A stretch of DNA of 49,944 nucleotides from Alphaproteobacteria bacterium. Lineage in GTDB: Bacteria > Pseudomonadota > Alphaproteobacteria > RF32 > CAG-239. Under the pieces are notes generated by a model. The model did not search any database. It saw only the letters and a program-made list of their open reading frames with translations, and was not told the DNA's origin. Positions 10,362 to 15,798 of this stretch are shown here, piece after piece. Within the stretch, counting starts at the first letter, position 1. Every line of letters begins with the position of its first letter. The stretch is from the NCBI GenBank assembly GCA_016288295.1, contig JAEEYV010000024.1, positions 1-49,944 of the forward strand, given 5' to 3'. A program made the translations under genes and the position numbers.

Positions 10362-11312
10362 CTATGCACTCTGCATAACTCTTTTCTTAAAATCCTTGGG
10401 CTTAATCACTTTTACATGCTTGCCCCAGGTATAAAGGTGCCAACCCATCTCCAACACACCTCCTGCGCAAAACTTAACTGTCAGCGTACCGTCATCGTTC
10501 AAGTGCATTTCTTGCGTTGGGTGGAACACATATTTTGCGGCATCTGCGGCAACTTCCTTATCAAACAGCCACTCCACCTCAAAAGGCTCCTCCTGATACA
10601 CGCCGAACGATTGCTTGCTGAATTCCTCGAGAGAAAAATCAGGATCTCTCACAAAATATTCATCCGTTACATTGATTTTCTGAATATTGTTCAAATCAAA
10701 ATAACACATAGCTTTGCGCTGAGTGTGCCAAGCAATCAGATAATGTTTGTTGCCATACAGAAAACCATAAGGGTGAACGGTTCGCCAACCGTCTTTTGAC
10801 TTGGATTGGTATTTTATCTTAATAACTTTGCAGGCAATAACTGCATTACGTAGTGTCTGCATAAATTCTTTATTAACGACAATTCTCGGTCCCGGCCGCA
10901 AGGCATAGCCTTCGGCCTGTAACAATGCCTCGGCATCGGGTTCTATCCTCATGCGCGATTCGTTGCTCATAGAAGCCTTAATTTTATGCAAGATCATCTC
11001 AAGCGAATCAACATCTTGAGGATTTTTCTTTTTCATTAGTTTTACGGCATTTTGCAAGGCATTAACTTCGTTTAGTGAAAAGCCGACATAATTATTGAGC
11101 GCCCCTTGGGGAATAAACCAACGTTTGGTGTTATGTGCACCGCAAATTTCCCGCATTTGTGGAAATTGCTCTTTTATCATGTCTTTCATACGGATAGCCG
11201 TGCGCTTGGAAACGCCGAACTTTTGCATAATATCAGCAATTGATACGCCGGCATCGGCATTTTGCATCCACAATGACAACTCTAAGAGTTTTTGTGTCTT
11301 TTCATAAAACAT
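10362..11312 (-). CDS. WYL-domain transcriptional regulator (HTH + WYL + WCX)
   Basis: N-terminal HTH (VSIADIMQKFGVSKRTAIRMKDMI), WYL core (IKYQSKSKDGWRTVHPYGFLYGNKHYLIAWHTQRKAMCYFDLNNIQKINVTDEYF). Confidence 0.92.
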   Translation of the reverse strand: MFYEKTQKLLELSLWMQNADAGVSIADIMQKFGVSKRTAIRMKDMIKEQFPQMREICGAHNTKRWFIPQGALNNYVGFSLNEVNALQNAVKLMKKKNPQDVDSLEMILHKIKASMSNESRMRIEPDAEALLQAEGYALRPGPRIVVNKEFMQTLRNAVIACKVIKIKYQSKSKDGWRTVHPYGFLYGNKHYLIAWHTQRKAMCYFDLNNIQKINVTDEYFVRDPDFSLEEFSKQSFGVYQEEPFEVEWLFDKEVAADAAKYVFHPTQEMHLNDDGTLTVKFCAGGVLEMGWHLYTWGKHVKVIKPKDFKKRVMQSA

Positions 11313-11369: not shown

Positions 11370-11432
11370 TGTCAGATTATGGCAATACTAGAGTTTGGGC
11401 ATATTGACACTAATTTCCTGCTGTAGTAAGCT
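11370..11432 (+). promoter_or_regulatory. Predicted operator + promoter of the structured RNA: TGTCAGATTATGGCA (11370-11384), TTGACA (11404-11409), 17-nt spacer, TAAGCT (11427-11432)
   Basis: Aligns with 12061-12122 in operator sequence, operator-to--35 distance and -35/-10 spacing. Confidence 0.6.
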
Positions 11433-11438
11433 GTTGTT

Positions 11439-11990
11439 AACTTGAAGCTCAGGGGAGAGAGCATTCCTCGTTTGACCCTGACCAAGGGCGGTTTCAGATG
11501 CTTGGGATGTCTGCCCCAGTGTAATAGGGGAGAATTGGACTCCACCAGCACTGCGGTGGCGACATATCCGTTGCCGAGTTGTAGTTTTAACCTGGTCACC
11601 AACAGGTATGTTGTTGGAGATTTAGAGATTATCACAGGGACTGGTATAGTTCTGGACGTCCTCGCCAATGTGCGATGCTAAAGTGTCAGAATTTACGCCA
11701 GTCGCTGGATACCGCTGTTGCGTGAGATTGACTTGTCAACCTCGGAATCTCCTTAGGAGTTCGCAGCGGTATGTCCCTCCACCCCAAGCAATCGGAGCGA
11801 GGAAGGTCTGAGGGGTGCCATATGTCGGCAATTCATAGTATTCAAGGCTCCCAGCAGGTGGACATATCGCCTGGTCTGGAGTTCCGTTAAGAGGAGCGAG
11901 CAGCGGAAAGCTCAACCGCGGAGCCGGTGCTTATAGCATCGCGTGTTCTCGATGATGGAGCTGGGCGACCATCCGCTCCTCTTTTATTTA
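11439..11990 (+). ncRNA. Candidate large structured non-coding RNA (~550 nt)
   Basis: GC-richer than flanks, no convincing ORF; stems include ATACCGCTG/CAGCGGTAT (11709-11717/11764-11772), CACCCC/GGGGTG (11780-11785/11812-11817), GGCGAC/GTTGCC (11558-11563/11570-11575), TGCC/GGCA (11816-11819/11827-11830); ends with GAGGAGCG/CGCTCCTC (11891-11898/11974-11981) followed by TTTTATTTA. Confidence 0.72.
11891..11990 (+). terminator. 3' multibranched stem closed by GAGGAGCG/CGCTCCTC plus T-tract, likely end of the RNA
   Basis: 8-bp perfect closing stem followed by TTTTATTTA. Confidence 0.6.
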
Positions 11991-12060
11991 TGTCTTTACC
12001 TTTTACCTCAGTTTTTACAAATATATTTCCGTGTCGATTGATGCACCAAATATAAAGCGA

Positions 12061-12122
12061 TGTCAGAATCTGGCAAAACTAAATTTTCAGCCCTTGCACA
12101 ATAAAAATACAATCTATAAGAT
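12061..12122 (+). promoter_or_regulatory. Predicted operator + promoter: TGTCAGAATCTGGCA (12061-12075), TTGCAC (12094-12099), 17-nt spacer, TAAGAT (12117-12122)
   Basis: Near-palindromic 7-1-7 site and promoter boxes upstream of the 12148 ORF; matches 11370-11432. Confidence 0.6.
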
Positions 12123-12147: not shown

Positions 12148-12486
12148 ATGTCAAACGATTTGCGAGAAATAAACTGGCGAGCATTTATGCGTTGGGTAGG
12201 CTGGAAAATTATTCAAATTTTTTGTGTATTCCTTTGTTATTGGGTTTGTTACACCTTGTCAGGTGAACTCGGACTGGCAGGGGTGCAACGAGCCGTCTTT
12301 ACGACCTTTATAGGTTCCTGCGGTCTATGTTTTTTACAGTTGGCCGGAGTTTTGCCCAAAGACCTTTTAGAAAACAGAATACTTGATAAAATAATGCCAA
12401 AGTTTATGGATTTTATCATCTTCACCGGACTAATATTTTTTGCAATTTTGATACCGGTTATAAAATATTTGGAGACCCACCAATAA
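12148..12486 (+). CDS. small membrane protein, unknown function
   Basis: 112 aa with hydrophobic segments; RBS gagaggtg; immediately upstream of the DnaB-like ATPase. Confidence 0.75.
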   Translation: MSNDLREINWRAFMRWVGWKIIQIFCVFLCYWVCYTLSGELGLAGVQRAVFTTFIGSCGLCFLQLAGVLPKDLLENRILDKIMPKFMDFIIFTGLIFFAILIPVIKYLETHQ

Positions 12487-12534
12487 ATGAAAGAGGCTTT
12501 GCTAGTACGTGCGAGTAATTTGAAAGGGAGTAAA

Positions 12535-13536
12535 ATGGCTATAAAGTATAACGATGAGCAAAAGCAACAGAACAATAAAAGTTTTCATAACAACCATATT
12601 GCCCATATACTTCAAAATTATGATATAGATTTGGCATTCAAATACCAAAATCCTGATAAACTGCGTGGTATATCGACTGGTTTAACTGCTCTTGATGCCA
12701 AACTTGATGGTTTGTGTTCCGGCGATGTTGTGCTCATTGGTGGGCGTCCGGCAATGGGTAAAACTTCTCTTGCTATCAATATGGCTCGTAACATAGCAAC
12801 AGATTTTTCTGCTCAATATCAACAAAATCCCGATGATAATAAATGTGTGGTATATATAGGGCTCGAATATTCTTCCAAAAAGTTTGCAGAGCGTCTAGTC
12901 GGTATGGAAGCCTCAATACCTGCATATCAAATGCGAGGTTCTTACATACGCGAAAATTATGATCGCATTGTTACAACCGAATATACTTTGGAAAAATTGC
13001 CACTTTACTACTATGACAACATTTATAACATTGATGATATCGCAGACGAACTGCAAAATATCCGGCGGGAACATCAGATTGGAGCGTTATTTATTGATTA
13101 CTTACAACTAATTACCCCAAGTCTTGATGGACCTTGTGATGACGTTATGTGTCAGATTAAAGAACTGGCAGTTAGATTCGAAATTCCGATTATCGTTCTT
13201 GCCCAGCTGAACCGCAATCTTGAAAGTAGGGCAGATAAGCGCCCTATAATATTTGATATTCGAGGTTTTGAAAATCGCCCCCCCGTATCTGCTAATAAGA
13301 TACTGCTCATATATCGTGACAGTTATTACTTGATTAATAACGAACCTCGTCCACGACGCAATGAAAGCTCGGAGAAATTTGAAAAACGCTACGCAAGCTG
13401 GGAAAAACAGTACAAAGAAGCAAAAAACTTATGTGAGATTATAGTTGCCCAAAACAGTGACGGATATTCCGGAATAGTGAGAGTTTATTTTGACCCCAGC
13501 ACCGGAGTGTTTGAAAACTTGCACCATGAATACTAG
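12535..13536 (+). CDS. stand-alone DnaB C-terminal-like RecA-fold ATPase (start likely 12535 rather than 12487)
   Basis: GISTGLTALDAKLDGLCSGDVVLIGGRPAMGKTSLAINMA Walker A, ALFIDYLQLI Walker B, IIVLAQLNR; lacks the DnaB N-terminal domain; RBS aaaggga precedes ATG at 12535. Confidence 0.85.
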   Translation: MAIKYNDEQKQQNNKSFHNNHIAHILQNYDIDLAFKYQNPDKLRGISTGLTALDAKLDGLCSGDVVLIGGRPAMGKTSLAINMARNIATDFSAQYQQNPDDNKCVVYIGLEYSSKKFAERLVGMEASIPAYQMRGSYIRENYDRIVTTEYTLEKLPLYYYDNIYNIDDIADELQNIRREHQIGALFIDYLQLITPSLDGPCDDVMCQIKELAVRFEIPIIVLAQLNRNLESRADKRPIIFDIRGFENRPPVSANKILLIYRDSYYLINNEPRPRRNESSEKFEKRYASWEKQYKEAKNLCEIIVAQNSDGYSGIVRVYFDPSTGVFENLHHEY

Positions 13537-13606: not shown

Positions 13607-15664
13607 ATGAGAGCGATAGACGGAAATGTATTAAAAATTTTTAATGGCGAGAAACAATTTATTGTTCCTTTATATCAGCGTACGTACAGTTGGAAAGAAG
13701 AGCAGTGCCGAAGGTTGTGGAATGACATCGTTTTCTTAGAAAAAAACAGTAAAAACGGTCATTTCATCGGGTCTATTGTAAGCGTAATAGAGAGTGCACC
13801 AATTTCAGGAACATCAAAAAGTTTGGTTATTGATGGTCAACAACGCTTGACTACGCTGACAATATTGTTAATTGCCCTGCGTGATTACTTATCATCAAAA
13901 GGAATCAATACAGCTATAACGCGTAAATTTCTAAAAAACGACACTGACAAAGAAAGTGATCTATATAAACTTATTCTTACATACAGTGACAAAGATGTCC
14001 TGATAAAATTGATTGAAAATTCACCTACAGAAGATGTCAAAAATTCTCGTATCCTTGATGCATATCACTACTTCTTGACGCAAATAAGTTCATCTGGATT
14101 ATCACAAGATGAAATAGAACAGGCAATTGCAAAACTGCAAATTGTTGATGTAACATTAGACCCTTCTGTAGATGATCCTCAATCTATTTTTGAGAGCCTT
14201 AATTCTACCGGAATGGACTTATCCCAATCGGATTTAATTCGAAATTACATATTGATGGGATTAAGCAATCTTGAACAAACTGAATTGTATAAAAACGTGT
14301 GGTTGCCAACGGAAAGGCTGTTTAATTATAATAAGCAATCTGAATTAATGGACGGCTTTTTCAGAGATTACATTACAATGAAAATTTCTAGAATTCCGAA
14401 GGAGGAAAATGTTTATGATGAATTCAAAAAATACCACCAAGGTTTGAATACATCAAACCAAGAGCTTTGCACCGATATTTATAGCTATGCAAAATGCTAT
14501 ACAAACATTTTATTTTCAAAGTCGAATGATACAGAACTTAATGAAATTTTTTCTGACATCAGATTATTGCGTATGGAAGTAGCATATCCATTTTTAATGT
14601 ATATATACAATGACTACGAAAACAATAAGATAACTCGGGAAGAATTTATACAAATACTACGGCTGACGGAAAGTTACGTATTTAGAAGAGCTATTTGTGA
14701 AATTCCAACAAACTCGCTGAACAAAACATTTGCTGTCATGAAGAATAAAATCCGCCAAAATGACTACGTGAATTCAATATGTGCTAACTACACTTTACTT
14801 GATTCTTATAAAGAATTTCCTAAAGATGAGGAGTTTGCACAACGCTTTGTTGAAAAAGATATATACCATATGCGCATTCGCCAGTATATACTTGGTAAGC
14901 TTGAGAAGTATGACAACAAGGAAAAACTTGATCTCGGCTCATTTACAATTGAACACGTAATGCCTGAAAACGAAAATTTAAGGAATGGGTGGAAGGAAGC
15001 ACTGGGTGATGATTGGCAGACAATTCATACTCAATACTTACATACAATAGGTAATCTAACACTTACTGCCTACAACTCAGAAATGAGCGATAGACCATTT
15101 TCTGAAAAATTAAAAATGAAAGGTGGATTTACGGATACGGGGCTTAGATTAAATTTGTATATTCGCAATCAAACAGAGTGGAATAAAGACAAAATCATAG
15201 AAAGAGCCAAAATTTTATCTAATTATGCCCTTAAAATTTGGCAGTTTCCTACTGTAAGTAATGAAGTTATTCAAAAATATACAGAGGAGCCATCAAAAAA
15301 ACGAACACATTACACATTTGAGCATTATTCTGATAGCTTTTCAGATGAAACTTTGCGGATTTACGAGGAACTTGATAAAAAGATTATGAATCTCGATGCA
15401 TGTATTAAAAAGGAATTTAAGAAATTGTACATAGCGTATAAAGCAGAAACAAATTTTGTTGATGTTATTCCTCAAAAGTCTGCACTATTCTTAAATATAT
15501 CTTTAGATTATGATAAAATAAATGACCCAAAGGGACTATGTGAGAACATCGCAGACAAAGGTCGATGGGGAACTGGTACGACAGGTATTCATTTGACACC
15601 ACAGACGGAAATTGATGATGTTGTTGAAATCATCTCTCAAGCACTAGATTTTCAACTAAATTAA
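13607..15664 (+). CDS. DUF262 + DUF1524 (GmrSD-like) protein with DUF5655-like C-terminus
   Basis: FIVPLYQRTYSWKEEQCRRLWNDI...IDGQQRLTTLTILL (DUF262), FTIEHVMPEN...HTIGNLTLTAYN (DUF1524 HNH-like), C-terminal KKLYIAYKAETNFVDVIPQKSALFLNISLDYDKINDPKGLCENIADKGRWGTG. Confidence 0.9.
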   Translation: MRAIDGNVLKIFNGEKQFIVPLYQRTYSWKEEQCRRLWNDIVFLEKNSKNGHFIGSIVSVIESAPISGTSKSLVIDGQQRLTTLTILLIALRDYLSSKGINTAITRKFLKNDTDKESDLYKLILTYSDKDVLIKLIENSPTEDVKNSRILDAYHYFLTQISSSGLSQDEIEQAIAKLQIVDVTLDPSVDDPQSIFESLNSTGMDLSQSDLIRNYILMGLSNLEQTELYKNVWLPTERLFNYNKQSELMDGFFRDYITMKISRIPKEENVYDEFKKYHQGLNTSNQELCTDIYSYAKCYTNILFSKSNDTELNEIFSDIRLLRMEVAYPFLMYIYNDYENNKITREEFIQILRLTESYVFRRAICEIPTNSLNKTFAVMKNKIRQNDYVNSICANYTLLDSYKEFPKDEEFAQRFVEKDIYHMRIRQYILGKLEKYDNKEKLDLGSFTIEHVMPENENLRNGWKEALGDDWQTIHTQYLHTIGNLTLTAYNSEMSDRPFSEKLKMKGGFTDTGLRLNLYIRNQTEWNKDKIIERAKILSNYALKIWQFPTVSNEVIQKYTEEPSKKRTHYTFEHYSDSFSDETLRIYEELDKKIMNLDACIKKEFKKLYIAYKAETNFVDVIPQKSALFLNISLDYDKINDPKGLCENIADKGRWGTGTTGIHLTPQTEIDDVVEIISQALDFQLN

Positions 15665-15721: not shown

Positions 15722-15798
15722 TGGTCGGAGTGACTGGATTCGAACCAGCGACTTCTTGCACCCCATGCAAGCGCTCTACCAGGCTGAACTACACTCCG
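15722..15798 (-). tRNA. tRNA-Pro (anticodon GGG), CCA encoded
   Basis: Reverse complement CGGAGTGTAGTTCAGCCTGGTAGAGCGCTTGCATGGGGTGCAAG...GGTTCGAATCCAGTCACTCCGACCA forms a full cloverleaf; loop ATGGGGT. Confidence 0.95.

Follow-up and report, generated by a model that had tools for sequence, protein, structure and literature searches.

Organisation of the WYL locus

Within the window (the whole stretch of DNA that was analysed, 49,944 nucleotides long, from a gut alphaproteobacterium), a gene for a WYL/WCX-domain transcription regulator (10362-11312, minus strand; Pfam WYL 1.4e-11, WCX 2.9e-8) is divergent from an array of approximately eight RNA modules, strung together on the plus strand in the order A1-A2-A3-X1-B-M2-K-E. 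The array is preceded by a TTGACA-17-TAAGCT promoter (11404-11432, plus strand), in which the -35 element (11404-11409) is perfect and the -10 element weak, and, 19 bp upstream of the -35 element, by the palindromic operator TGTCAGATTATGGCA (11370-11384, plus strand), a probable WYL site. The centre of this palindrome lies about -63 from the inferred start, which is the geometry of a class I activator, and we infer that it is bound by the WYL protein.

A second operator, TGTCAGAATCTGGCA (12061-12075, plus strand), is found upstream of an ORF for a small membrane-like protein (12148-12486, plus strand), which would belong to the same putative regulon and yielded neither Pfam nor PADLOC matches. 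The next gene on this strand (12487-13536; PF03796, 2.1e-48) encodes only the C-terminal domain of the DnaB helicase; the same ATPase-only protein stands behind the small membrane ORF in three array genomes. It is followed by a neighbouring gene that is, by its domain content, an anti-phage gene for a GmrSD-type restriction protein (13607-15664, plus strand; GmrSD_N 1.1e-38, GmrSD_C 5.8e-24; best PADLOC model Orf5, 8e-170). Directly after the GmrSD gene lies a tRNA gene (15725-15798, minus strand), a possible integration point of the island.

The region 11439-11990 had drawn attention as a candidate large structured RNA in a GC-richer gap, lacking any believable ORF and unassignable to a known family by eye. 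Indeed, the GC content is 0.50-0.55 across 11400-11999 vs. 0.35-0.39 in the adjoining flanks, no convincing ORF was found in 11439-11990, and a covariance-model search of this region matched neither ROOL, GOLLD or OLE nor any other Rfam family (0 matches at the gathering threshold; two chance-level matches at E<=10, both outside the RNA). In the corresponding Rfam search of related loci, tRNAs were the sole matches. The plus strand of 11439-11990 folds at -206.5 kcal/mol with a z-score of -2.53 (0 of 100 shuffles as good), and the minus strand also folds well (z -3.46), so that folding energy alone cannot tell the strand; the RNA is assigned to the plus strand on account of its promoter, terminator and homologs.

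The strong complementary segments named in the original prediction are all present in the sequence. The modules all lie on the plus strand. Module A1 (11439-11515) is 76% identical to a cassette antisense to a gene of another locus (L200), whose toxin is assigned, weakly, as PBECR2-like (E=0.033 to PBECR2). Module A2 (11516-11560) resembles the RNA that follows MuF_C in a 3358-aa ORF (L205/L214; 86% identity across 36 nt), and module A3 (11561-11641), 99% identical in the L013 array and 91% in L014, occurs in arrays only, among the loci found. Module X1 (11640-11708) has a relative in the L206 locus (75.5% over 49 nt). Module B (11709-11773; z -2.97) is closed by the predicted 9-bp stem, ATACCGCTG/CAGCGGTAT, and is 97% identical in the L015 array, with a 69% variant in L014. 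Module M2 (11775-11813) is a hairpin, CCAAGC-AATCGGA-GCGAGG, linked to MuF_C as its toxin; it shares 31 of 32 nt (11780-11811) with the RNA that follows MuF_C in L215. Module K (11806-11875; CM R2, 58.5 bits, E=1.6e-10) comprises two hairpins with kissing loops, ATATGTC (11820-11826) and GACATAT (11861-11867), the former within the predicted TGCC-ATATGTC-GGCA hairpin, located at 11816-11830. Finally, the predicted 3' domain corresponds to module E (11891-11985), closed by GAGGAGCG/CGCTCCTC (11891-11898 / 11974-11981) and followed by a T-tract, which together form the array terminator; it is 99% identical in L014 and 80% identical to a solitary intergenic cassette in L016.

Links to toxin families within the window array thus cover A1, A2 and M2 of the approximately eight modules, and a DNA search with X1 plus B across the bacterial family returned 0 toxin-linked copies. 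The array region as a whole gave no blastn match in phages and plasmids, and scans of viral contigs returned nothing beyond chance matches for CGGATTTGTAGCCG and ordinary promoters for the promoter-spacer pattern. The idea of tRNA mimicry by the GGATTTGTA hairpin, which goes no further than a resemblance, was set aside.

Rearranged arrays, shared operators and covariation

Homologs of the region within the bacterial family break at fixed module borders. Modules of the window, along with others (H, T, R, M, S), are arranged in different orders in the arrays G012:C8 (L013), G002:C12 (L014, two arrays), G002:C17 (L015) and G199:C79 (L206), and the second WYL locus of the window's own genome (G000:C30, L017) carries three K modules in tandem. 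Given that modules are reshuffled while their borders stay fixed, 11439-11990 is not one fixed large RNA. A single monolithic non-coding RNA of the ROOL, GOLLD or OLE kind, which the continuous fold and the large length would favour, is therefore hardly credible, considering that the modules also stand alone and in other orders. The original prediction holds insofar as this is a real structured locus of ~550 nt without an Rfam family, with covarying helices and a long-range loop-loop pairing; however, what was taken for a single ornate molecule consists of a mosaic in which independent modules of 45-95 nt recombine freely. Several of these are also found as solitary cassettes, for the most part linked to phage nuclease-toxin domains.

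Most of the reshuffled arrays adjoin a WYL gene and its operator, with WYL genes found next to the L013, L014, L017 and L204 arrays. The operator pattern has 15 exact matches in 13 genomes of the genus (0 for a reversed control), and it lies 19 bp upstream of the -35 element in 13 of the 17 listed promoters (one of them a duplicate), which belong to WYL-linked arrays and neighbouring genes. WYL linkage was also considered as a general rule and rejected: among 28 WYL relatives, the upstream regions listed outside the genus hold ordinary genes and no such RNA, which makes WYL a local regulator of the arrays rather than their universal partner. The array operator also precedes small accessory genes (MORN-like, ankyrin, membrane) at L013 2804, L014 9757, L207 9608 and L210 8725 and 11263, which points to a WYL regulon made up of defence or accessory genes. 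At L013 5824-6594 (genome G012), the array is separated from the homolog of the 12148 gene by an insertion comprising a DUF6994 gene and a small ORF.

Covariation scores exceeded those of all 500 shuffles (0/500 as high) for the MuF_C-linked hairpin (16 sequences; 0.365 vs. 0.157 in shuffles), the T junction (0.550 vs. 0.150) and K with its kissing loop (7 sequences; 0.489 vs. 0.186), and all three also scored above every slid control. In addition, three helices of the T RNA in L264 are changed with compensation. The alignments are small and picked by eye and the shuffle control keeps relatedness, so these values provide strong support, short of a formal R-scape result, for RNA structure under selection.

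The suggested pairing of GACATAT with ATATGTC fares differently for the two copies of the heptamer. For the copy at 11861-11867, pairing with 11820-11826 is upheld by covariation in the 7 K sequences, where the kissing helix is 100% paired and one pair covaries. The copy at 11561-11567 is probably not a partner of ATATGTC, as it belongs to a different module, whose L014 version has TACATAT instead.

Solitary cassettes behind phage toxin domains

A family-wide search revealed solitary modules equipped with their own TTGACA-17-TATAAT-like promoter and terminator. At least three modules of the window (A1, A2 and M2), as well as the related T and H, occur singly elsewhere. Many of the solitary modules are antisense to polyvalent genes of phages and mobile elements, within them or at their end, where they occupy the 3' border of small RNase-like toxin domains of the BECR type (MuF_C, PBECR1, LPD3 and PBECR2-like). 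The A2 cassette is located within the uninterrupted 3358-aa ORF (ddrB-ParB, MuF_C, PBECR5), and the A1 cassette behind the PBECR2-like domain; a search for viral relatives of the A1-linked toxin found none.

The same association is obtained when starting from the toxin. Across 128 genomes of the family, each of the nine above-cutoff MuF_C domains (9/9) has an antisense promoter scoring 11/12 and a folded RNA immediately behind it, neither of which is present behind the single sub-threshold match, apparently a false one. In the eight non-redundant cases, promoter scores on the sense strand and on the 5' side do not exceed 9/12, and the antisense score is reached by 0 of 200 dinucleotide shuffles in six cases and by 2 and 3 of 200 in the other two; the folding z-scores of these cassettes range from -2.0 to -5.0. 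In most MuF_C cases of the bacterial family, the linked RNA is a rod ending in a stem-AATTGRA-stem hairpin, and A2 matches another, distinct type of MuF_C-linked RNA (L214). PBECR1 is accompanied by the T RNA, a three-way junction, in L201, in its viral relative L221 (toxin 89% identical), in L269 and in L264, where the toxin is divergent and its PBECR1 domain has a strong family match. LPD3 is accompanied by the H RNA in L251, with relatives carrying the loop ATTTAT in L253 and L259. K is found in two solitary cassettes (L279 and L280) with kissing loops of a further sequence, ATGTATC/GATACAT; no toxin was recognised beside these two.

Overall, module type tracks toxin type, each toxin-linked module family going with one toxin family, with exceptions. 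Antisense promoters are missing behind most LPD3 domains in very large proteins, where the exceptions fall in one group, and behind several PBECR1 and PBECR2 genes, so the toxin-RNA pairing is not universal.

The MuF_C-linked RNA extends beyond the bacterial family. The stem-AATTGRA-stem hairpin is present in other Pseudomonadota (L222-L224), in the E. coli phages PhiR12_3 and PhiR5_2, in an E. coli prophage, in a Pasteurella phage and on an Acinetobacter plasmid, with related forms on an Aeromonas and an Opitutaceae plasmid. In PhiR5_2, the MuF_C domain lies in the region 53988-54323 of PV340546.1. A tblastn search of phages and plasmids with the MuF_C of the family itself gave no match; MuF_C queries from other Pseudomonadota do match there. 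A 60-80% identical match to the E. coli MuF_C-linked region was found in 415 of 5426 complete E. coli genomes. The E. coli phage and prophage copies (L311 501-845, L312 501-836 and L317 501-848) are LPD5/LPD38 polyvalent genes with the MuF_C-linked antisense RNA and a terminator. On a 3.6-kb Aeromonas plasmid (L316 197-1076), a stand-alone MuF_C gene is directly followed by a promoter-like sequence (TTGACA/TATATT) in antisense orientation, together a candidate minimal toxin/RNA pair.

Proposed orphan antidote arrays, alternative readings and known systems

Three genomes that carry arrays appear to lack the toxins: a search for MuF_C, PBECR1, PBECR2 and LPD3 in G000 (completeness 90.6%), G002 and G012 gave no match. 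What is found in these genomes is thus a series of antidote-like units, related to toxin-linked cassettes, without the toxins. Taking together the modularity, the toxin linkage, the module-toxin specificity, the breadth of occurrence, the covariation, this orphan state and a regulon beside GmrSD, we consider it likely that the locus is an orphan RNA-antitoxin array conferring immunity to phage toxins and switched on by the WYL regulator; the architecture is observed directly, and the neutralisation of toxins is what we infer from it. As modules also occur singly and reversed in phage toxin genes, the most fitting interpretation of the array is as a prepared collection of RNA antidotes to phage toxins. 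Several observations count against the antitoxin reading: toxin links in the array are limited to A1 (weakly), A2 and M2, the toxin-RNA pairing has exceptions, A1, M2, K and A3 on their own fold no better than shuffles, and the antisense promoter in E. coli is weak by consensus.

Mechanistically, each module might act, once folded, as an aptamer or as a mimic of the substrate, binding its cognate RNase and inhibiting it, by analogy with type III RNA antitoxins. In a phage or mobile element, the antisense cassette would give rise to a small RNA restraining the adjoining RNase domain and protecting the producer. Bacteria would have gathered such cassettes into arrays under WYL control, and, once the regulator is triggered, the collected modules would be expressed in series and would counteract toxins that enter with injected phage DNA or are produced by invading elements. 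We also lean towards a wider proposition, according to which the linker that follows each RNase toxin domain in Pseudomonadota phages and plasmids encodes an RNA antitoxin in antisense, with one fold per toxin family, and bacteria collect these modules into regulated arrays as a modular, recombining immune memory against injected toxins.

The main rival to the antitoxin array is a cis-antisense, type I-like mechanism, in which the cassettes pair with the overlapped toxin mRNA to block its translation or stability and the arrays provide trans-acting copies. It accounts for the toxin-adjoining solitary cassettes being antisense to the toxin gene or its edge, and complementarity to the toxin mRNA is perfect in cis, by position. 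Nevertheless, we judge it unlikely, since both strands of the stems vary with loops and structure preserved, for which antisense pairing has no need, and the overlap involves the linker or the distant 3' edge rather than the start region. Furthermore, the array copies have diverged (merely 75-86% identity to several toxin-linked forms), structure rather than sequence being conserved, and the kissing loop is kept in arrays without a toxin. An improbable alternative is that the RNAs, rather than inhibiting the nucleases, serve as their guides or activators or else regulate phage genes, for example as host-RNA mimics used as substrates or cofactors; BECR domains act on RNA, the targets of PBECR are unknown (PMC5512222), and a target could be imitated by an apical loop such as AATTGGA. 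However, many such RNAs in one array would hardly be worth keeping for a bacterium that lacks the toxins. We regard as quite improbable that these are selfish palindromic elements residing in frame within genes, in the manner of the Rickettsia palindromic elements, with no role in immunity: their in-frame location in large ORFs (the 3358-aa ORF remains intact) and their mosaic, mobile look would fit, but their position behind toxin domains is fixed, module type follows toxin type, promoter and terminator are conserved, and the arrays are gathered in a regulated locus by a defence gene. That we are dealing merely with antisense intrinsic terminators and promoter-like sequence arising from a conserved protein linker (NNILQKSDVVN, LQLP), to whose conserved residues the promoter and the AATTGGA loop are antisense, is very doubtful, as promoter and RNA persist outside ORFs (L016, L209, L264 and the arrays), stems covary where the protein changes, and M2 has been retained in the window although no ORF is present there.

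The toxin partners of the proposed antitoxin arrays are themselves known as the MuF_C, PBECR and LPD domains of MuF and polyvalent proteins of phages and mobile elements, thought to be injected (PMC5576092, PMC5512222). Immunity to them has been proposed to come from small downstream ORFs or left open, and antisense or non-coding RNA partners are not mentioned (PMC5576092, PMC5512222). Such toxins occur in many phages, and the present model offers an answer to how the producer survives its own RNase domains and how hosts could resist injected ones; the MuF_C version in E. coli phages makes it directly testable in laboratory strains. No comparable RNA arrays were found in Rfam or in the searched literature, the coverage of which is thin for subscription papers and preprints, suggesting that RNA-array immunity against phage toxins has not previously been described, as far as searched.

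Among known systems, ROOL, GOLLD and OLE are alike in length and non-coding nature; the present RNAs differ in having no Rfam match and in being modular, shuffled and toxin-linked. The Rickettsia palindromic elements are likewise short folded elements in frame within ORFs of Alphaproteobacteria; the present modules differ from them in having a promoter and a position specific to the toxin, and in forming arrays outside ORFs. By analogy, the system may work like type III toxin-antitoxin systems (ToxIN, TenpIN, CptIN, AvcID), with which it shares a structured small RNA in genetic linkage with a protein toxin that is usually an RNase (here in 9/9 MuF_C cases of the family, in E. coli and other phages, and in PBECR1 and LPD3 cases), along with pseudoknot or loop-loop folds and a terminator-like stem. 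Type III RNAs are tandem repeats upstream of the toxin gene and co-transcribed with it, whereas the modules seen here are single and antisense, at the 3' border of the toxin domain, different toxin families are accompanied by RNAs of several unrelated folds, and arrays of mixed modules, such as that of the window, stand without a toxin; as the upstream, same-operon, tandem-repeat position is not seen, we have not filed the system as type III. Phage pseudo-ToxI RNA mimics, too, are reportedly RNA antitoxin repeats, with which a phage disarms a bacterial toxin. The other party's toxin is disarmed in both situations, but here the bacterium would disarm those of the phage, and with many different modules. 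The orphan immunity islands of polymorphic toxins likewise gather antidotes without toxins; the known ones encode immunity proteins, in contrast to the RNA modules described here. If the proposed reading is true, it would add a new arrangement of RNA antitoxins, a set of RNase-binding RNA folds and an RNA-based analogue of these orphan immunity islands.
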